Assembly (NCBI RefSeq): GCF_902832845.1
Contig: NZ_CADFDB010000008.1
Location: 248,001 to 312,000 of the forward strand
Reading direction: 5' to 3'
Source: Burkholderia metallica
GTDB taxonomy: Bacteria > Pseudomonadota > Gammaproteobacteria > Burkholderiales > Burkholderiaceae
DNA: 64,000 nt
A model generated the notes under the pieces. That model was not told the DNA's origin. It saw only the letters and a list, made by a program, of their open reading frames with translations, and ran no database searches. The translations under genes were made by a program, and so were the position numbers. Positions 17,099-49,148 of the stretch are shown in pieces (positions within the stretch are counted from its first letter, which is position 1; each line of letters starts with the position of its first letter).

Positions 17099-17842
17099 AT
17101 GGTGCAAGCACCTCCGCGCCCGGCGCTGAGCGGCCCGGCGCTCGTCCGGCTCCTCGCGCGCGTGGCCGATGCCGACGTCGCGGAATCCCGGCAGACGCTG
17201 TCCGACCGGCTGAGCCAGTGGCTCGGCTGGACCGACGCGATCACGCTGTCGTCCGCGCTGAACGCGAGCGCGCCCGGCGTCGCGGCCGGCGTGCGCGGCT
17301 ACGACGCGGAGCGCGACTGCGCGCGCGTGCGCCACGAGCTCGCGCAGGCGATCACGGCCGCCAACCGGCCGCGCGCGCGGCGCCGGCCCGGCGATCCGCC
17401 GCCGCCGGCCGCCGACACTGCCGATTTCGCCGACTTCCGCCAGCGTTACCTGGCGTTGCAGCAGGACATGGAAACGGCGATCGGCCAGTTGCGCGGCCGC
17501 CTGCGGGTCGCGGTCGCCGCACGCTCGTCCGGGATGGCGCGGCTCGCGACGCTCGACGCGATCATGGAGCGCGTGCTCGGCGCGCGCGAGCGCAGCCTGC
17601 TGTCGGCCGTGCCCGCGCTGCTCGCCACGCGTTTCGGGCGGCTGCGCGACGCGGAGCGGCAGGCGCTGGCCGATGCGGAAGCCGCCGCAGCGGCAGTCGA
17701 GCCGGCCGAGGCCGCCGCGGCGCTCGTGCCCGGCGCATGGCTCGAGACGTTTCGCGACGAGATGCAAAGCATCCTGCTGGCCGAACTCGAAGTCCGGTTT
17801 CAAACGGTGGACGGGCTGCTCGCGGCCCTTCGCACCAGCTAA
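17099..17842 (+). CDS. DUF3348-family protein, first gene of the motor-like operon
   Basis: 247 residues, soluble, without signal peptide or membrane segment, and mostly helical and alanine/arginine-rich. Recognisable DUF3348 stretches are LVRLLARVADADVAESRQTL, then FADFRQRYLALQQDMETAIG, and the C-terminal WLETFRDEMQSILLAELEVR. The function is unknown. It is followed after 10 bp by the DUF802 gene, so both are on one message. In Burkholderia these families typically sit together, which suggests a cytosolic partner of the membrane complex encoded downstream. The start at 17099 is chosen because conserved sequence begins there. Confidence 0.75.
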   Translation: MVQAPPRPALSGPALVRLLARVADADVAESRQTLSDRLSQWLGWTDAITLSSALNASAPGVAAGVRGYDAERDCARVRHELAQAITAANRPRARRRPGDPPPPAADTADFADFRQRYLALQQDMETAIGQLRGRLRVAVAARSSGMARLATLDAIMERVLGARERSLLSAVPALLATRFGRLRDAERQALADAEAAAAAVEPAEAAAALVPGAWLETFRDEMQSILLAELEVRFQTVDGLLAALRTS

Positions 17843-17852
17843 TCAACACGCT

Positions 17853-20800
17853 ATGTCCAGAATTCGCCTTGATCTCGTTGTCTTCGTCGCCGGTCTGCTC
17901 GCTGTGGGCTGGATCGGCGCCGGCTATGCCGCGTCGAACCCGCTGGCGGCGGCCGTCACGCTGCTGATCGCCGCGTGCTACGTCGCAGGCGCATGGGAAC
18001 TGCTGCGCTACCGGCAGGCCACCGCCACGCTGTCGCGCGCGGTCGCCGGCCTGACCGAGCCGCCCGCGAAGCTCGACACGTGGCTCGACACGCTGCACCC
18101 GGGCCTGCGCGGCGCGGTGCGTGCGCGGGTCGAAGGCGCGCGCGTCGCGCTGCCGGGCCCGGCGCTCACGCCGTACCTCGTCGGCCTGCTCGTGCTGCTC
18201 GGCATGCTCGGCACGCTGCTCGGGATGGTCGTCACGCTGAAGGGCACGGGCGCCGCGCTCGAAAGCGCGACCGACCTCGACGCGATCCGCGCATCGCTGA
18301 TCGCGCCGGTGAAGGGCCTCGGGTTCGCGTTCGGCACGTCGATTGCCGGCGTCGCGACGTCCGCGATGCTCGGGCTGCTGTCCGCGCTCGTGCGCCGCGA
18401 GCGGATCGACGCGGCGCAGCAGCTCGACGCGAAGATCGCGACGACGTTGCGCGTGCATTCGTCCGCGCACCAGCGCGACGAATCGTTCCGGCTGCTGCAG
18501 CGCCAGGCCGACGTGATGCCGGCGCTGGTCGACCGGCTGCAGACGATGATGACGACGCTCGAGGCGCGCAGCGTCGCGCTGCACGATCGCCAGCTCGAAA
18601 GCCAGCAGGCGTTTTTCGACCGGACCGAGCGCGCGTATGCGGGCCTCGCGTCGAACGTCGGCGACGCGCTGAAGGAAAGCGCCGCCGAAAGCGCGCGCGT
18701 GGCCGGCGCCGCGCTGCAACCGGTCGTCGCCGCGACGATGACGGGGCTCGCGCAGGAAATGGCCGCGCTGCGCGACACCGTGACGGGCGCCGTGCAACGT
18801 CAGCTCGACGGGCTGACGGACGGTTTCGAAAAGACCACCGGCAACGTGACGGCCGTCTGGAACCGTGCGCTCGACGAACAGCGCCGCGCGGGCGACGCGG
18901 TCGCGCAACAGCTGCAGACGACGCTCGGCCAGTTCACCGATACGTTCGCGCAGCGTTCGACGGATCTGCTCGACGGCGTCGCGACGCGCCTCGAATCGAC
19001 TGAAAACTGCCTGTCGGACGCGTGGCGCGATGCGCTGTCGCGTCAGGAGCAGGTCGGCGAGGCGCTCGCCGGCCAGCATGCGCGTGCGCTGGGCGAAGCC
19101 GCCGCGACGTTCGAACGCCATTCGGGTGCGACGCTCGCCGCGATGCGCGAGTCGCACACGAGCCTGCAGACGCAACTGGCCGCGCGCGACGAAGCACGCC
19201 TCGCCGCGTGGAACGACTCGCTGGCCGCGATGGCTGCAAAGCTCGGCGACGAATGGCAGCGCGCGGGCGCGCACAGTGCGGGCCGTCAGCAGGAAATCTG
19301 CGACGCACTCGCACAAACGACGCGTGAGCTTTCGGTACAGGCCGCGACATTCGAACAACGCTCCAACGACCTGCTGTCGACGATTCGCGATTCGCATACG
19401 GGCCTGCAAACGCAGCTTGCCGCACGCGATGAAGAACGCCTGTCTGCATGGAACGCATCACTGGCCGCGATGGCCGCGAAGCTCGGCGACGAATGGCAGC
19501 GCGCGGGCGCACACAGCGTGGGCCGTCAGCAGGAAATCTGCGACGCACTCGCGCAAACGACGCGCGACCTGAGCGCACAGGCCGCGACGTTCGAGCAACG
19601 CTCGAATGACCTGCTGTCGACGATCCGCGATTCGCATACGGGCCTGCAAACGCAGCTTGCCGCACGGGATGAAGAACGCCTGTCGAAATGGAACGACTCG
19701 CTGGCCGCGATGGCCGCGAAGCTCGGTGACGAATGGCAGCGCGCGGGCGTGCACAGCGCGGGCCGTCAGCAGGAAATCTGCGACGCGCTCGCGCAAACGA
19801 CGCGTGACCTGAGCGCACAGGCGGCGACGTTCGAACAACGCTCGAACGACTTGCTGTCGACGATCCGCGATTCGCATACGGGTCTGCAAACGCAGCTTGC
19901 CGCACGCGATGAAGAACGCCTGTCGAAATGGAACGACTCGCTGGCCGCGATGGCCGCGAAGCTCGGCGACGAATGGCAGCGCGCGGGCGCACACAGCGTG
20001 GGCCGCCAGCAGGAAATCTGCGATGCGCTCGCACAAACGACGCGTGACCTGAGCGCACAGGCCGCGACGTTCGAACAACGCTCGAACGACTTGCTGTCGA
20101 CGATCCGCGATTCGCACGCGAGCTTGCAGACGCAACTGGCCGCGCGCGACGAAGCACGCCTCGCCGCATGGAACGACTCGCTCGCCGCGATGGCCGCCGC
20201 GCTGCGCGACGAATGGGCGCAAGCGAGCGCGCAGGCCGCGACGCGTCAGCAGGACATCTGCGACACGCTGGCCCGCACCGCGAACGACATCACCGCGCAG
20301 GCGAAAGTGCATGCGGGCGACACGATCAACGAGATCGCGCGTCTCGTGCAGGCTGCCTCGGAGGCGCCGAAGGCCGCGGCCGACGTCGTCGCCGAGCTGC
20401 GTCAGCGCCTGTCCGACAGCCTCGCGCACGACACCGCGATGCTCGAGGAGCGCAGCCGTCTGCTCGCGACGCTCGAAACGCTGCTCGGCGCGGTCAATCA
20501 CGCGTCGACCGAACAGCGCACCGCGATCGATGCGCTCGTCAGCACGTCGGCCGACCTGCTCGATCGCGTCGGCGCGCGCTTCAACGACACCGTCGATGCC
20601 GAAACGCGCAAGCTCGACTCGGTGGCCGCGCAGGTCACGGCCGGTGCCGTCGAAGTGGCGAGCCTCGGCGATGCGTTCGGCGCCGCCGTGCAGGTGTTCG
20701 GCGAATCGAACGACAAGCTGCTGACCCATCTGCAACGCATCGAGGCCGCGCTCGAGAAGTCGCTCGCGCGTAGCGACGAGCAGCTCGAGTATTACGTCGC

Positions 20801-20900
20801 GCAGGCGCGCGAGGTGATCGACCTGAGCATGATGTCGCAGAAGCAGATCGTCGAAGACCTGCAGCAGCTCGCCGGCCGGCGGGCGTCCGTCGGAGCGTAA
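17853..20900 (+). CDS. DUF802 protein with MotA/ExbB/ZorA-like membrane core and long repeat tail
   Basis: 1015 residues. Four hydrophobic segments lie at about 7-26, 30-48, 108-128 and 160-185. The last two (LLVLLGMLGTLLGMVVTLKG, then FGTSIAGVATSAMLGLLSAL) match the pattern of MotA/TolQ/ExbB/ZorA stator subunits, with a cytosolic loop between segments 2 and 3. The remaining 830 residues are a predicted alpha-helical, cytosolic tail. Inside it five 80-residue repeats lie at 19104-20303, followed by a DUF802-like end. The next gene is a MotB-like partner. Family members are annotated only as DUF802; the stator reading is inference from topology and motif pattern. The start at 17853 gives a proper first membrane helix. 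Confidence 0.8.
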   Translation: MSRIRLDLVVFVAGLLAVGWIGAGYAASNPLAAAVTLLIAACYVAGAWELLRYRQATATLSRAVAGLTEPPAKLDTWLDTLHPGLRGAVRARVEGARVALPGPALTPYLVGLLVLLGMLGTLLGMVVTLKGTGAALESATDLDAIRASLIAPVKGLGFAFGTSIAGVATSAMLGLLSALVRRERIDAAQQLDAKIATTLRVHSSAHQRDESFRLLQRQADVMPALVDRLQTMMTTLEARSVALHDRQLESQQAFFDRTERAYAGLASNVGDALKESAAESARVAGAALQPVVAATMTGLAQEMAALRDTVTGAVQRQLDGLTDGFEKTTGNVTAVWNRALDEQRRAGDAVAQQLQTTLGQFTDTFAQRSTDLLDGVATRLESTENCLSDAWRDALSRQEQVGEALAGQHARALGEAAATFERHSGATLAAMRESHTSLQTQLAARDEARLAAWNDSLAAMAAKLGDEWQRAGAHSAGRQQEICDALAQTTRELSVQAATFEQRSNDLLSTIRDSHTGLQTQLAARDEERLSAWNASLAAMAAKLGDEWQRAGAHSVGRQQEICDALAQTTRDLSAQAATFEQRSNDLLSTIRDSHTGLQTQLAARDEERLSKWNDSLAAMAAKLGDEWQRAGVHSAGRQQEICDALAQTTRDLSAQAATFEQRSNDLLSTIRDSHTGLQTQLAARDEERLSKWNDSLAAMAAKLGDEWQRAGAHSVGRQQEICDALAQTTRDLSAQAATFEQRSNDLLSTIRDSHASLQTQLAARDEARLAAWNDSLAAMAAALRDEWAQASAQAATRQQDICDTLARTANDITAQAKVHAGDTINEIARLVQAASEAPKAAADVVAELRQRLSDSLAHDTAMLEERSRLLATLETLLGAVNHASTEQRTAIDALVSTSADLLDRVGARFNDTVDAETRKLDSVAAQVTAGAVEVASLGDAFGAAVQVFGESNDKLLTHLQRIEAALEKSLARSDEQLEYYVAQAREVIDLSMMSQKQIVEDLQQLAGRRASVGA
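19104..20303 (+). repeat. Five in-frame tandem repeats of 240 bp (80 residues) in the tail
   Basis: Units begin at 19104, 19344, 19584, 19824 and 20064 with the period exactly 240 bp. Each encodes ATFEQRSNDLLSTIRDSH, then LQTQLAARDEERLSWN-like and GRQQEICDALAQTTRDLSAQ. The three middle units are almost identical at DNA level and the outer two have diverged. The even period keeps the frame, so recombination would lengthen or shorten the tail without breaking it. Confidence 0.95.
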
Positions 20901-20903
20901 CGC

Positions 20904-21548
20904 ATGCACGACGAAATCGACGGCGGCGCGTCATCCGCGCCGGTGTGGCCCGCCTTCGCCGACCTGATGTCGGTGCTGCTCGGCGCGTTCGTGCTGATCC
21001 TCGTCGGCGTGATCGGCATGCAGCTTCAGCTCACATCGAAGCTCGAGGAAGCCGTGCGGGCGCGCCAGCAGGAAGCGCAGCAGCGCAAATCGCTGGAGCA
21101 GGCGCTCGCCGGGCCGCTCGCGGCCGGCCGCGTGACGCTCGTGAACGGGCGCATCGGTATCAGCGGCAGCGTGCTGTTCGCGCTGAACTCCGACCAGTTG
21201 CAGCCCGCGGGCCGCGATCTGCTGCAGACGCTGGCCGCGCCGCTGGGCACCTACCTGAAGACGCGCGACGAGCTCCTGATGATCAGCGGCTTCGCCGACG
21301 ACCAGCAGGTGCATGCCGGCAACCGCCGATTCGCGGACAACTGGGAGCTGTCGGCCAAGCGCGCGCTGACGGTCACGCGTGCGTTGATCGACGCCGGCGT
21401 GCCGGCGTCGTCGGTGTTCGCGGCGGCGTTCGGCTCCGAACAGCCGGTCAGCTCGAACGCGGACGATGAAGGCCGCGCGAAGAACCGTCGCGTGGAAATC
21501 GCGCCGGTGCCGCGCAAGTCGGCGTCGAACGGAGGGAAGGCGAAGTGA
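20904..21548 (+). CDS. OmpA/MotB-like membrane-anchored protein
   Basis: 214 residues. One membrane segment near the N-terminus, PAFADLMSVLLGAFVLILVG, contains the FADLM pattern with an aspartate (residue 20) where MotB, TolR and ZorB carry the ion-binding aspartate. A short helical linker follows. Residues 80-205 are an OmpA-type peptidoglycan-binding domain (SVLFALNSDQLQPAGRDLL, ISGFADDQQ, then DDEGRAKNRRVEI). It would pair with the preceding protein to form an ion-driven stator fixed to the cell wall. It starts 3 bp after the previous stop, and its own stop overlaps the next start (GTGA at 21545). Confidence 0.88.
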   Translation: MHDEIDGGASSAPVWPAFADLMSVLLGAFVLILVGVIGMQLQLTSKLEEAVRARQQEAQQRKSLEQALAGPLAAGRVTLVNGRIGISGSVLFALNSDQLQPAGRDLLQTLAAPLGTYLKTRDELLMISGFADDQQVHAGNRRFADNWELSAKRALTVTRALIDAGVPASSVFAAAFGSEQPVSSNADDEGRAKNRRVEIAPVPRKSASNGGKAK

Positions 21549-22162
21549 CGCTCGACGCGACGCACGTGCGCGCGACGCTCGACGCGTGGCGCGAGCAGGG
21601 CGCCGACCGGCTCGATCCGGTGCGTTTTCACCGGATCGACGCGCTCGAACGGCGCGCGGCCGTGCTCGATGGCAGCGCGCGCGAATTGCTCGACGCACGG
21701 CTGGCGACGCTGATCGAAGGCTTCGCGGAGGTCGTGGCGCGGGCCGATGAAGCGAAGGTGGCGCGCGACACTGCGGACGCCGCGGCAGGTGCGCCCGTGC
21801 GCGGCGCGATCGCGGACCTCGTCGAACGGCTTGCGCGCGATGCGCAGGCCGACCGGCGCGGGCTCGATCCCGAGCTGGTCGACTACTTCCGCACGATGTG
21901 GTCGAAAGTCCGCACGGAACAGCAGTACCGCCAGTCGCTCGACCAGGTGCCGCGCAATGCGGGGCCGCTCAATTCGAACAGTCTCGTGCACCGGTCGCTC
22001 GCGACGATGCGCGAGCTGTCGCCGGAATACCTGCAGCAGTTCCTGTCGTACGTCGATGCGCTCGCGTGGCTCGAGGATCTCGCCGGCGGCGGCGCGCAGC
22101 CCGAGAAGGAAGTGCCGCGCGCGAAGACGGTGAAGAAGGGCACGCGGACCAAGAGCCGGTAG
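21545..22162 (+). CDS. DUF2894-family protein, last gene of the motor-like operon
   Basis: 205 residues, soluble and helical. Family stretches are LDAWREQGADRLDPVRFHRI at the N-terminus and LVDYFRTMWSKVRTEQQYRQ around residue 110, followed by SPEYLQQFLSYVDALAWLED and a lysine-rich C-terminus (KTVKKGTRTKSR) that could contact nucleic acid or membrane lipids. The function is unknown. A GTG start overlaps the previous TGA (GTGA), so it is coupled to the OmpA/MotB-like gene. With DUF3348 it flanks the membrane pair and is a likely accessory or effector component. Confidence 0.75.
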   Translation: MTLDATHVRATLDAWREQGADRLDPVRFHRIDALERRAAVLDGSARELLDARLATLIEGFAEVVARADEAKVARDTADAAAGAPVRGAIADLVERLARDAQADRRGLDPELVDYFRTMWSKVRTEQQYRQSLDQVPRNAGPLNSNSLVHRSLATMRELSPEYLQQFLSYVDALAWLEDLAGGGAQPEKEVPRAKTVKKGTRTKSR

Positions 22163-23948: not shown

Positions 23949-24545
23949 TTATCGCACCGGCGTTCGGTCGACGCCGGCCATCCCCATCCCCGTCACGCGC
24001 GCGAATTCTTCTATCTCCCACCCGTGACCGAGCATCAGCCGCCGCGTATGCAGCGCGCCGTGCACGTCGTCGGCGACGGTTTCGCCGAGATAACGCAGCG
24101 CGCGCCCTTCGATATCGACGAAGCCGTGACGGTAATCCTGCGCGAGCGCGGTCCATAGTTGCGCGGCGCCGACCGACTGGCGCGCGCCGCTGATCAGGCA
24201 CAGGCCCGCGTCGAGCCCCCAGCGATACAGCGTGGTCGCAAGGCCCTTGCGTTGCGCCGACCCGCGTAGCCGCGTATGCGGTGCGCGCAGGTAGCGATCC
24301 GCGCGGCGCGGAATTTCGGGCAGGCGGTTGAATACCGTGTAGCCGGCGAGCTGGCGCGCGGCCGGATCTTCGACATACAGGAAGTATTCGCCGTCCGCCT
24401 CGCGGTGGCGGACGATCAGGTCCGAGCGGCCGAGCGCGACCGCAGGCAGGCCGTGCAGGCGATGGCCCGGCTGATGCAGGCGCGCGTAGAGGGTGTCGAG
24501 TTCATCGTCGATGTCGTGCTGGGAATGGTGTACGTCGATGCGCAT
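23949..24545 (-). CDS. Acetyltransferase-like protein (GNAT fold)
   Basis: 198 residues. A strand-loop pattern DLIVRHREADGEYFLYVEDP, then QLAGYTVFNRLPEI and RLRGSAQRKGLATTLYRWGL, carries the Q/R-x-x-G-x-A/G acetyl-CoA site, placing it in the GNAT superfamily. ISGARQSVGAAQLWTALAQD is typical of acyl-homoserine-lactone-independent toxin-type or phage-derived GNATs, but the substrate is unknown. The last 50 residues extend the domain. It is upstream of the FMN reductase on the same strand. Confidence 0.6.
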   Translation of the reverse strand: MRIDVHHSQHDIDDELDTLYARLHQPGHRLHGLPAVALGRSDLIVRHREADGEYFLYVEDPAARQLAGYTVFNRLPEIPRRADRYLRAPHTRLRGSAQRKGLATTLYRWGLDAGLCLISGARQSVGAAQLWTALAQDYRHGFVDIEGRALRYLGETVADDVHGALHTRRLMLGHGWEIEEFARVTGMGMAGVDRTPVR

Positions 24546-45636: not shown

Positions 45637-45762
45637 ATGACGAACGAACAAGCAGCAAAAGCGATCAGTAGCCTTGGCGTCGCGGATTACCCGGACTGCA
45701 CGCCGTTTACCTTCGTGGGTTGCGAACTCCCGAATGGCGAGAACCAGGAGGCTGCGACATGA
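45637..45762 (+). CDS. 41-residue ORF coupled to the PAAR gene
   Basis: ATG 45637 has GAGAGGG 7-13 nt upstream. It encodes MTNEQAAKAISSLGVADYPD and ends at a TGA that overlaps the PAAR ATG (ATGA, 45759-45762). There are two cysteines and no signal or membrane segment. It may be a real small protein or a coupling device for PAAR translation. I do not recognise it. Confidence 0.5.
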   Translation: MTNEQAAKAISSLGVADYPDCTPFTFVGCELPNGENQEAAT

Positions 45763-46307
45763 TCCGGTTTTTCCTCGCCAAGGGCGACCGCGCGGGGAGC
45801 GCGATCATCACCGAGGGTCTCGACACTGTGACCTGTTCTAATCCGCCTCCGGCAGTACAAATCGCCACGCTCGGCATGAAAACCTACTGCACGACCTGTA
45901 GGCAAGAAGGATTCATTGCACCGGAGGGGCCACGCTGGCCAGGGACAGGCCCGAACGGCAAGCAATGGGCATTGAGCGGCGATATCAACGTGTGCGACTG
46001 CAGCCCGCCGCCGGTTTTCTACGCAGAGCGCAACATGAGAATGACTTTCACGGCGGAGGAAGCGGCTGCGCTGACGGGGCGAAGCGTTTCGCGTTCGGTG
46101 GTGGCGGGACGGACTGAACACGACGAACAATTTGTTCTCCGCGACGCCGATACCGGCCGACCGTTGGCGAGATTGCAATATCGAATTCGTACCGCGGCCG
46201 GGAAGGTATTCAGCGGCGTCACGGATGCTACCGGCCATACACAGCGCGTCACGACAACCAATGCCGAATCGCTTTGCCTTGAAATTGTGAGGAGCGAAAA
46301 TGCCTAA
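45759..46307 (+). CDS. PAAR-domain protein with transthyretin-like C-terminal extension
   Basis: 182 residues. Residues 1-95 follow the PAAR pattern: IRFFLAKGDRAGSAIITEG, then TTCRQEGFIAPEGP and ALSGDINVCDCSPPPVFYA with paired cysteines. PAAR proteins cap the VgrG spike of type VI secretion and carry effectors. Residues 115-180 (EQFVLRDADTGRPLARLQYR, then GVTDATGHTQRV) are a small beta domain often found at the ends of VgrG/PAAR proteins and used to hold cargo. No VgrG or other secretion gene is in the window, so this is an orphan cargo locus. Its end overlaps the peptidase start by 8 bp. Confidence 0.82.
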   Translation: MIRFFLAKGDRAGSAIITEGLDTVTCSNPPPAVQIATLGMKTYCTTCRQEGFIAPEGPRWPGTGPNGKQWALSGDINVCDCSPPPVFYAERNMRMTFTAEEAAALTGRSVSRSVVAGRTEHDEQFVLRDADTGRPLARLQYRIRTAAGKVFSGVTDATGHTQRVTTTNAESLCLEIVRSENA

Positions 46308-46971
46308 TGACGGTTACGAAATCGTTCACGACTCCGCTGCCACGAACACGACACCTGGATCGAAGGTCTACGTTGACGTCAACATGGCGCCGATATGCCC
46401 AAATATGACGAATAAGCAATTCGCCGATGTGGTAATGCGTGCGCGAGATGCGGGTGTGGTCTTGATTCAGGATCGTATCGCGGCGGTTACGCGATGGGAC
46501 AGAAGCGAGCAGGATCGAGCCAAAACTTACTTCGGCCGCGCAGATGAGGAGATCAGAAGCACACTAGTCGCTGGCCTGCCTCGCCTGCTGAAAGCCATGC
46601 AAGAGCTTGTTCCGGAGAAAATTGTTCGCTGGGACAGCGATCTCAACCGGAGCCTGTCGTGCGCCGTTGTACCTGATACCGGCTCGAATCATGCGGGAGT
46701 CTGTAAGCCTGATTCCGAACGGCGAGTCATAGCAATCTATTCAAAATTCTGCTCTACTTCAAACGGTGAGCTATTCCATGCCGCAAAAGTAAAAGTTTTG
46801 ATTCATGAGTGCACGCATTACACTGACACATTTAATTCCGACGATATTGTTTATGGCGATACTGAAATTGGCATGAAGGTTTTTGCAATGAATAATTCGG
46901 ATTGTGCGATCAAGAACGCCGATAGCATAACTGGGTATATTGCGACATTTGATAGGGTTGTTATTCAATGA
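46300..46971 (+). CDS. M35-type (aspzincin) metallopeptidase, probable type VI effector
   Basis: 223 residues with no signal peptide. VLIHECTHYTDTF contains HExxH (His169, Glu170, His173), and DDIVYG nine residues later supplies the aspartate zinc ligand (Asp182) and the D-x-x-Y-G of aspzincins. The N-terminal half is helical (QFADVVMRARDAGVVLIQDR). It should be a zinc endopeptidase delivered by the PAAR protein and acting on proteins in the target cell. The usual GTxD motif is reduced to NSDD. The stop overlaps the next ATG. Base composition is clearly less GC-rich than the flanks. Confidence 0.8.
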   Translation: MPNDGYEIVHDSAATNTTPGSKVYVDVNMAPICPNMTNKQFADVVMRARDAGVVLIQDRIAAVTRWDRSEQDRAKTYFGRADEEIRSTLVAGLPRLLKAMQELVPEKIVRWDSDLNRSLSCAVVPDTGSNHAGVCKPDSERRVIAIYSKFCSTSNGELFHAAKVKVLIHECTHYTDTFNSDDIVYGDTEIGMKVFAMNNSDCAIKNADSITGYIATFDRVVIQ

Positions 46972-47459
46972 TCATCACACGGTGTTTGAAGTCTTTTCTG
47001 TCGGCTCTGGCAATCCTGGTGTTCGCATTCTTCGACGGACCGGCTGTCGCGTGTACTATCGGAGAGGAGGCGCAGATCCAACTGCCGTTCAATGCCACTG
47101 ATATTTCCAATGCCGACAGGCTCGCAATAGCCAATATCGTGATTGAGGCGAAGCAATGGCCCGATGTGGAAATTCAAGCGGTTGTGATTGCGGGTGCATA
47201 TAAAAACGAAAAAAATGTGGAGAGATTGAAGGAGACCCGAGCCGACATTGTTAAAGCATATCTGCAGCAACTTGGCATCAAGAGCGAGAACATATTGATT
47301 GACAAGAAGACGTTCACAGATGAGATGGTGGTTAAGCATCCCGACGGCACGATGACTATCCATCAAATCGTGATCGAGTTGACGCCGATATGTAAGGGCA
47401 GTTGCGCGCGGCTTTGCGATGATCCTCGCGTGACGCCGACAAGCAAGGCGATCAAGTAA
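46968..47459 (+). CDS. Secreted putative immunity protein of the M35 effector
   Basis: 163 residues. The signal peptide SFLSALAILVFAFFDGPAVA is followed by C-T, so it is either a lipoprotein or a cleaved periplasmic protein. The middle (ERLKETRADIVKAYLQQLGI, KSENILIDKKTF) recalls the OmpA-like alpha/beta fold. Cysteines near the C-terminus (CKGSCARLC) may form disulfides. Position directly after the effector with an ATGA overlap, and periplasmic location, fit an immunity protein protecting against a toxin that acts in the periplasm. This is inference from context. Confidence 0.6.
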   Translation: MIITRCLKSFLSALAILVFAFFDGPAVACTIGEEAQIQLPFNATDISNADRLAIANIVIEAKQWPDVEIQAVVIAGAYKNEKNVERLKETRADIVKAYLQQLGIKSENILIDKKTFTDEMVVKHPDGTMTIHQIVIELTPICKGSCARLCDDPRVTPTSKAIK

Positions 47460-47460
47460 T

Positions 47461-47769
47461 TTCAGCGCAGTGTGGCGCCGTATCGGCTGGGCTTCTTTTT
47501 CTTGCAATCAAACACGAGACCGAGACGTTTCGCGCTGGCGTCGCTCACCGCGCGCGTGACACTCGCTGTTAGCTCGTGCGCGAAGCCATAGGTTCCGGCG
47601 CTCGCTGGCGAGCGTTGCTGGACAACTTCTGCATGTCATTTGTGACGTGCGCCGCCCACGTATTCATGAACGGAATACGTTGCGCTAGCGGGTCGGTGTA
47701 GTGACACACCGCTTCATCCAATTGCTGCGCGCTCACGCGCTGCCGCCCCGAAGATGACGGAAATATCAT
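47461..47769 (-). pseudogene. Possible decayed gene after the effector module
   Basis: On the minus strand ATG 47769 opens 66 codons (IFPSSSGRQRVSAQQLDEAV and on). A second frame reads SAGTYGFAHELTASVTRAVS and then KRLGLVFDCKKKKPSRYGAT to a stop at 47461. The two frames overlap near 47600 and would join by one frameshift. The composition looks protein-like but I do not recognise it. It may be a remnant of the acquired segment. The remaining bases to 47837 hold the promoter region of the efflux operon. Confidence 0.3.
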
Positions 47770-47837
47770 CTTCGCCTCATGTTCGCACTGCGGCCTGACC
47801 GTAGCATCGGTCGCAAACCGTTACCGCAGAACCGAAC

Positions 47838-49148
47838 ATGCTCAAGCTCAACCTCGTCGTGGCCGTCATCTTCGCGATGGCCGCGACGGCTCATGCGCAG
47901 CCGTCGCCAGCGCCGGCGACGTCCGGCAGCGCCGCGCCAATCGCCGCCCCGCCCCCCGACGCGCCCCCTGTTCCGCCGTTGACGCTCGCCGACGTGCTGT
48001 CGGTCGCCGCCCGCAACAACCCGGCGCTGCGCGGCGCGCGCGCCGACGTCGATGCGTCCGCAGGCGCGCTGCTGCAAGCCGGCGCACGCCCGAACCCGGA
48101 AATCTCGTTCCTGCAGGAAGGGTTTCGCCGCGCCGAACGCACGTCGACCGCGCTGATCAACCAGACGATCGAACTCGGCGGCAAGCGCAGCGCGCGCGTC
48201 GACGTCGCGTCGTACGGCAGGGAAGCGGCCGATGCGTCGCTCGACGAGCAGGGCGCCGTCGTGCGCGCCGACGTGATCGCCGCGTTCTACGGGCTGCTCG
48301 CCGCGCAGCGCCAGCTTCAGGTGACAGAGGAGTCGGCCGCGATCGCCGCGCGCTCCGCGGATCTCGCGAGCCGCCGTGCGCAGGCCGGCAAGGTGTCGCC
48401 GGTCGAGGCGACCAAGGCGCACGTGGCGGCGGCGGGCGTGCAGATCGAAGTCGTGACCGCGCGCGGCCGGGTCGAGGTCGCACGTGAAAAGCTGAACGCG
48501 GTGATGGGCGAAGCGCGCGACGGCCGGGTGGCGGTGCTCGGCGATCTCGAAGCGGTGCCGCCGGTGGCGCCGCTGTCCGCGCTGACCGCGCAGATCGACG
48601 ATGCGCCGCTCGCGCGGGTCGCGCGCGCCGAGATGCTGCGCTCGAACGCGGCCGTGTCGCTCGAACGCGCGCGGCGCATTCCGGACGTGACGATCAGCGC
48701 GGGCGTGAAGCGCGTGACCACGGGCGGCGTGCCGGACAACCAGGCGGTGGTCGGCGTGTCGATCCCGATTCCGCTGTTCAACACGAACAAGGGCGCGCTG
48801 CTCGAGGCGACGCACAAGGCCGAGCGCGCGAACGCCGATCTCGATCGCGAACGCATGCGTCTGCGGCTGGAACTCACACAGGCGTACGCGAATTTCGAAG
48901 CCGCCGCGCAGGAAGCGCAGCGGCTGAAGGGCGACATCCTGCCGGCCGCGCGCGTCGCACTCGACGCGATGTCACGCGGCTACGAACTCGGGAAGTTCAG
49001 CTTCCTCGACGTGCTCGACGCGCAGCGCACGCTGTTCCAGGGCCAGTCGCAATACGTGCGCGCGCTTGCCGACGCACATACGGCCCGCGCCGACATCGGC
49101 CGGCTCGTCGGTACGCCGCTCGCACCGCTTGCACCGGTCGCGCAATAG
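47838..49148 (+). CDS. czcC: Outer-membrane efflux channel of the CzcC/TolC family
   Basis: 436 residues with a signal peptide (VVAVIFAMAATAHAQ). Two outer-membrane-factor repeats follow: LTLADVLSVAARNNPALRGA at about 52 and the second half from VAPLSALTAQIDDAPLARVA. The QGQSQYVRALADAHTARADI stretch is typical of the second alpha-hairpin. It forms the exit duct of the three-part heavy-metal pump. It is first of five genes (CzcC-CzcB-CzcA-regulator-sensor) on one strand. The gene symbol is by family position; the metal (cobalt, zinc, cadmium or copper) is not established. Confidence 0.9.
   Translation: MLKLNLVVAVIFAMAATAHAQPSPAPATSGSAAPIAAPPPDAPPVPPLTLADVLSVAARNNPALRGARADVDASAGALLQAGARPNPEISFLQEGFRRAERTSTALINQTIELGGKRSARVDVASYGREAADASLDEQGAVVRADVIAAFYGLLAAQRQLQVTEESAAIAARSADLASRRAQAGKVSPVEATKAHVAAAGVQIEVVTARGRVEVAREKLNAVMGEARDGRVAVLGDLEAVPPVAPLSALTAQIDDAPLARVARAEMLRSNAAVSLERARRIPDVTISAGVKRVTTGGVPDNQAVVGVSIPIPLFNTNKGALLEATHKAERANADLDRERMRLRLELTQAYANFEAAAQEAQRLKGDILPAARVALDAMSRGYELGKFSFLDVLDAQRTLFQGQSQYVRALADAHTARADIGRLVGTPLAPLAPVAQ

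Follow-up and report, generated by a model that had tools for sequence, protein, structure and literature searches.

Zorya type III was named in 2021 from 6,401 cases, and the system of Stenotrophomonas nitritireducens was one of three, each of which reduced plaque formation by at least one phage in E. coli (Payne et al., 2021, accessible part; PMC8565338). According to that account, the type consists of ZorA and ZorB flanked by a DUF3348 protein, named ZorF, and a DUF2894 protein, named ZorG; the two labels are reversed in PADLOC-DB (17099–17842 and 21545–22162 in the locus described below), and the Pfam names are used here. Types I and II have been solved as ZorA5B2 motors (PDB 8VVN and 8VVI), sharing a ZorA core, a long pentameric cytoplasmic rod modelled as a five-helix bundle and a ZorB with an aspartate and a peptidoglycan-binding domain, and they carry ZorC/ZorD or ZorE, of which ZorE was identified as the nickase effector of type II (PMC11890865, accessible part). 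The same source names Burkholderia and four further genera in which type III occurs more often. For type III itself, neither a structure nor a mechanism was found in the literature that was accessible.

The locus studied here lies in a stretch of 64,000 nucleotides from Burkholderia metallica, called the window below (assembly GCF_902832845.1, contig NZ_CADFDB010000008.1, positions 248,001 to 312,000). It is a real and intact Zorya type III, a system already known, and it is therefore modest as a discovery. What looks new is the genus-wide fixation in Burkholderia and the stepped length of the ZorA tail, neither of which we found in the accessible part of the 2021 account of type III. Our overall explanation, to which we give a probability of roughly 0.7, is that of a motor with a helical rod and tip-engaged partners, forming a near-universal and mostly vertically inherited system in Burkholderia.

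Operon structure and type assignment

The operon occupies positions 17099–22162 (Table 1). Its first two junctions are gaps of 10 and 3 bp, and the third is a 4-bp overlap between the end of the ZorB3 gene and the DUF2894 gene, which starts with GTG. The original prediction had placed four genes with these junctions here, without a nuclease or helicase gene among them, and this anatomy held throughout, as did the family assignments (DUF802 at 3.6e-26, the other three in Table 1). It did not describe the repeat array at 19141–20264. A survey of genome context that it had proposed showed an arrangement beyond chance: the gene order was the same in 92 of 94 loci that were fetched, and likewise in 76 of 80 loci of named genomes; in the six others a gene is missing where the locus reaches a contig end.

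Table 1. Positions of the operon features in the window
Feature	Positions	Strand	Evidence
DUF3348 protein, 247 aa (ZorG3 in PADLOC-DB, ZorF in the 2021 paper)	17099..17842	+	Pfam PF11828 2.9e-85; PADLOC PDLC00658 1.9e-94; predicted all-helical, pLDDT 85.8, pTM 0.79
ZorA3 (DUF802), 1015 aa, MotA/ExbB-like membrane core and long cytoplasmic rod	17853..20900	+	PADLOC PDLC00649 E=0, 1574 bits; 8vvn_C
ZorA membrane core, residues 1-180, four hydrophobic segments	17853..18392	+	Hydropathy scan; 8vvn_C profile match
Proximal part of ZorA rod, upstream of repeat array, residues 181-429	18393..19139	+	First 400 residues align gap-free with 47 same-genus genes
Tandem array in ZorA rod, 4.7 copies of a 240-bp (80-residue) unit	19141..20264	+	Tandem Repeats Finder score 1646; four units with 85-96% DNA identity
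Conserved distal tip module of ZorA, residues 798-1015	20244..20897	+	Low entropy in 32 distinct 698-aa homologues; alignment A7
Tip motif SDEQLEYYVAQARE, ZorA residues 974-987	20772..20813	+	Strict form in 147/165, relaxed form in 165/165 distinct type III genes
ZorB3, 214 aa, one membrane helix and OmpA peptidoglycan-binding domain	20904..21548	+	PADLOC PDLC00651 1.5e-114; NCBIfam PRK09040 2e-116; 8vvn_B
ZorB Asp20 codon, presumed ion-carrying residue	20961..20963	+	Invariant in 14/14 aligned; equivalent to D24/D21 in types I/II (PMC11890865, accessible part)
OmpA domain of ZorB, residues 91-195	21174..21488	+	PF00691 7e-18
DUF2894 protein, 205 aa, basic C-terminal end (ZorF3 in PADLOC-DB, ZorG in the 2021 paper)	21545..22162	+	PF11445 4.8e-56; PADLOC PDLC00652 1.2e-81; predicted all-helical, pLDDT 80.2, pTM 0.45

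The original prediction had also held that the operon is not a standard Zorya type, and this part of it fell. All four genes match the type III models of PADLOC-DB, a type that was defined and phage-tested in 2021, and a non-standard type is thereby rejected; judged from these matches, the operon is almost certainly a member of type III, from which it shows no difference in gene content. The window ZorA matched the PADLOC model of ZorA1 at only 3.5e-15, against E=0 for ZorA3, and reached 18 bits with the NCBIfam model of type I ZorA, whose cut-off is 190 and which nothing in the whole genome exceeded. While types I and II carry ZorC/ZorD or ZorE, neither accompanies the window operon, the 8 neighbouring genes having no PADLOC match at E <= 0.001.

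A simple hydropathy scan placed hydrophobic segments of ZorA near residues 1–26, 33–51, 109–127 and 158–180, in agreement with the four membrane segments that had been predicted, and left about 835 residues beyond residue 180, close to the predicted tail of about 830. The predicted resemblance of the membrane core to MotA, ExbB and ZorA, for which a profile comparison had been suggested as a check, gained support from the match to PADLOC ZorA1 and from a profile match to Shewanella ZorA (8vvn_C, E 5e-6). ZorB has a single hydrophobic segment at residues 21–39 in the same kind of scan, and FADLM occupies its residues 18–22, so that the aspartate is D20, which is invariant in 14 of 14 aligned ZorB proteins. 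Profile matches to Shewanella ZorB (8vvn_B, 6.5e-9) and to 8qyd_F (4e-7), which we take to be E. coli ZorB, likewise favour the ZorB-like partner with a membrane Asp20 that had been proposed. The window protein thus has the membrane aspartate and the OmpA domain of a type III ZorB, its binding to peptidoglycan being predicted. By these profiles, ZorA and ZorB are shown to be the motor pair, of the MotAB/ExbBD superfamily. The flagellar stator MotAB, ExbBD and TolQR share with it the superfamily and the membrane aspartate, and MotB an OmpA-type anchor as well, but they differ from the window system in its tail of about 835 residues and in its partners; among the best 25 of 41 NCBIfam families, ZorB stayed under the curated cut-offs of MotD (85.5 bits vs 283) and of the MotB family (84.8 bits vs 259).

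Partner proteins

Both DUF3348 and DUF2894 are predicted to be all-helical, the arrangement being less certain for the latter, as the pTM values in Table 1 indicate. The DUF3348 model had no Foldseek match at E <= 0.001, and VIA-align gave generic bundles only. Searches with Pfam, NCBIfam, PADLOC and profiles, and with Foldseek for DUF3348, found no nuclease, helicase or other enzyme domain in either protein. We propose that the two may be adaptors or DNA- or tip-binding parts; an effector step performed by them is a guess, because DUF3348 lacks a structural match at the above threshold. In comparisons of the window with 47 same-genus genes, dN/dS was 0.10 for ZorA residues 1–330, 0.14 for ZorB, 0.30 for DUF3348 and 0.32 for DUF2894, with 0.04 for rpoB (34 pairs). 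On these substitution ratios, the operon appears to be under purifying selection, which is weaker on DUF3348 and DUF2894.

Length of the ZorA tail

The tandem array of the window lies in the ZorA tail. Of the 49 same-genus loci that share flanking genes with the window (see below), 47 have a whole ZorA, and its length is exactly 855, 935 or 1015 aa (4, 9 and 34 loci), with front and back parts that align with the window ZorA without gaps; the other 11 same-genus ZorA genes have different lengths, from 700 to 1110 aa. Over 165 distinct type III genes the length ranges from 625 to 1193 aa. An array is present in 104 of these 165, and other lineages have units of a different kind. The period of the best array was a multiple of 3 bp in all 106 cases in a set of 170 genes that holds five duplicates. 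Tandem arrays were found in none of 12 type I ZorA genes, a small sample in which some genes are cut by locus ends, and in 2 of 18 other distant ZorA relatives. Two distant ZorA-like genes outside type III (L307 and L310) have 108-bp arrays, whose unit of 36 residues is close to a whole number of turns.

Repeat units within a genome had a median identity of 0.904 (241 pairs in 48 genes including that of the window), and units at the same position in different species had a mean identity of 0.832, compared with 0.909 and 0.931 between species for the front and back parts of ZorA. In 47 of 48 genomes the within-genome identity exceeded the median between genomes, and the units appear from these identities to be undergoing homogenisation within genomes; despite this homogenisation, the nearest other species was closer than the within-genome units in 33 of 48. 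The tail has changed its length at least 9 times among 35 genomes.

We also used a measure that is independent of repeat finding, namely the number of residues separating the core motif GTS from the tip motif, which was obtained in 169 of 170 genes and took 40 values. The window value of 814 is 494, the common value, plus four times 80. When the 39 offsets from 494 were examined, the best pitch was 3.636 residues per turn, a value fitted to the same data that it describes, and 27 of the 39 distinct offsets fell within 0.15 turn, where about 12 would be expected and none of 20,000 jittered sets did as well; each distinct length was counted once, although lengths are not independent events. The other 12 miss the register by more than 0.15 turn. 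Counted by gene, 146 of 163 distinct genes were within 0.15 turn, related genes sharing lengths. The 16 distinct lengths of the repeat units, from 22 to 149 residues (102, 153 and 160 being omitted as multiples), gave a pitch of 3.634 with a mean cosine of 0.927, and the nine with at least 80% match gave a cosine of 0.953; in both cases, 0 of 20,000 random sets were as good. Hydrophobicity in the tails of 32 distinct 698-aa homologues had a period of 3.67 with power at 3.5 almost nil (peak 12.2, at most 11.7 in all 500 shuffles), and along the tail the period was mostly 3.64–3.68 and distally 3.58, not 3.5. The core-to-tip length of ZorA thus appears to vary mostly in whole helical turns.

Such steps could be purely mutational, recombination between repeats changing the copy number and the length having no meaning. 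The homogenised units and the length changes described above fit this explanation, as do microhomologies in the DNA of 39 array-free genes, which follow a separate, weaker helical pitch near 3.67 (8-base words, mean cosine 0.28; 10-base words, 0.45). It accounts for copy number, but poorly for the fit of 16 unit lengths to 3.634, and the 8- and 10-base microhomologies lack register at 3.636 (mean cosines of 0.02 and 0.00); those of 12 bases (18 pairs) lean towards this pitch (0.30). A mutational bias may lie behind the register, and we regard a purely mutational origin of the steps as unlikely. Because a continuous helical bundle requires its core residues to be in phase, insertions of whole turns would be tolerated and others selected against. 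The register pattern therefore points to one uninterrupted rod from membrane to tip, rotation not being proved by the pattern alone, and on this evidence the ZorA tail probably is a continuous rod. The rise of a helix is 0.15 nm per residue, which gives a rod of about 122 nm for the window, 74 nm for the commonest form and 63–148 nm over the family.

At the distal end, the last 200 residues of ZorA are mostly well conserved in the 32 homologues, and the best arrays end at least 164 residues from the C-terminus in 106 genes. The motif YYxxxA[RK] was absent from all of 30 type I or distant ZorA-like proteins, 7 of which the whole tip profile matches weakly.

Distribution and descent

DUF3348 was found in 210 of 299 genomes sampled from the family, in 22 of 300 from the order (20 above the cut-off) and in 24 of 397 from the phylum (23 above it), these samples overlapping, and in 0 of 14 control genomes. 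Separately, the DUF2894 model exceeded its cut-off in the control genome of Corynebacterium glutamicum, far from the range otherwise seen. Within Burkholderia, DUF2894 was present in 63 of 65 species, and the remaining two, which are fragmented assemblies, have DUF3348; there is one copy per species, one gene being split over two contigs in G956. A type I restriction domain was found in 28 of the same 65 species (27 over the cut-off). The operon thus seems to be core and near-universal in Burkholderia genomes. A genus-wide statement of this kind about type III in Burkholderia was not found in the literature searched.

Loci were fetched from 60 of the 64 other species, leaving out G223 and G956, where the operon was split or partly found, and G961 and G969. 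The window's seven flanking genes are oxidoreductase, acetyltransferase, LysE, DM13, FMN reductase, the gene at 23949–24545 and MFS; at least one of them recurs in 49 of these 60 loci, and none in the other 11. A mobile island is rejected on the records of DUF3348 on phages (0 of 50,697) and in the plasmid collection (26 of 72,556, the smallest of 588,872 bases). A scan of viral_contigs for ZorB gave 25 pattern matches and, by tblastn, no relative.

In a comparison with rpoB over 80 genomes, 46 of them of the genus including that of the window, distances of the Zor proteins followed those of rpoB (Spearman 0.83–0.86, against at most 0.28 in 299 shuffles each), and the combined Zor tree had 18 of 77 splits in common with the rpoB tree, with 0.19 expected by shuffling. 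Among well-supported Zor splits, 28 of 47 conflict with well-supported rpoB splits, the rpoB protein being nearly invariant in the genus (median distance 0.014). In the tree, the f56/f65 group joins the Burkholderiaceae genome G055; G942 was recognised as Dyella amyloliquefaciens because L117 and L208 are identical. Strictly vertical descent is not supported, the trees showing conflicting splits and exchange between families and genera, and we read the descent, as far as these trees indicate, as mostly vertical within clades with occasional exchange.

This distribution could also be that of a housekeeping gene set, in which ZorAB, DUF3348 and DUF2894 form a motor with an envelope or stress function and the phage resistance in E. 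coli arises incidentally from expression there. A single copy with one gene or the other in all 65 species, flanks largely shared within the genus, distances like those of rpoB, and records limited to none on phages and 26 in the plasmid collection, each of at least 0.59 Mb, all accord with such a role, and 0 of the 8 neighbouring genes is a PADLOC defence gene. So does the accessible part of a study of B. cenocepacia K56-2, for which Zorya III is listed: on infection, altered expression was limited to the first gene or the first two genes of the operon, and knocking down predicted defence genes left fitness against phage Bcep176 unchanged (PMC12584637). However, phage protection by type III was measured in E. 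coli (PMC8565338, accessible part), the trees show exchange at the levels of family and genus, and core status is compatible with defence, as in Ralstonia solanacearum, where type III was described in 2026 as highly conserved within the species as a defence system (PMC13064858, accessible part). We consider the housekeeping role improbable and a native role in defence likely. That a defence system is spread over a whole genus is relevant to the common picture in which defence genes are mobile.

Proposed mechanism

By analogy with types I and II, five ZorA would surround two ZorB in the inner membrane, ZorB anchoring the complex to peptidoglycan, and the passage of ions at Asp20 would turn ZorA. 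The five tails would form a single helical bundle that runs without a break, with a pitch of about 3.64 residues and a length of about 120 nm for the 814 residues from core motif to tip motif, and this bundle, as its sequence suggests, would pass motion or a signal to the conserved tip. The weakest steps follow: the tip might bind or release DUF3348 and DUF2894, which take the place of ZorC/ZorD or ZorE of types I and II, and these two proteins might then act on the infecting phage. We give even odds to the transmission from tip to partners.

An ion-leak channel of the abortive-infection kind is a different arrangement of the same parts: DUF3348 and DUF2894 would keep ZorAB shut until infection, after which the cell would be depolarised, the tail being a sensor that passes on no force. 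Payne et al. suggest that ZorAB is under the control of ZorF and ZorG, and they refer to an earlier proton-channel idea (PMC8565338, accessible part), and the lack of a recognised enzymatic domain in the two proteins is in keeping with this. In type II, however, the effector is the nickase ZorE and thus not ZorAB (PMC11890865, accessible part), and a plain channel gives no reason for a rod that keeps register; we hold such a channel to be quite improbable. A drive shaft or continuous bundle, if true, should fail when the register is broken and tolerate whole-turn changes of length, and the natural series of ZorA lengths together with the register rule provides a handle on how the tail relays a signal of infection from the wall to the effectors. 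A bolder reading, tentative and somewhat doubtful in our judgement, is that the type III system is a core motor, retained for the most part by vertical descent, with a register-locked drive shaft of about 63 to 148 nm, resized chiefly by whole turns because the tip must hold a fixed register with the motor, and that it may serve the cell beyond phage defence.

Other observation in the window

Elsewhere in the window, three ORFs on the plus strand at 45720–47459 lie in a dip of GC content (0.547 at 46001–48000, most of the window being near 0.64–0.73). They encode a protein of 195 aa without a Pfam match, an Aspzincin_M35 metallopeptidase of 223 aa (5.3e-10) and an OmpA-like protein of 163 aa (0.00026, under the cut-off), and our guess is that they are a recently acquired effector-type cassette.
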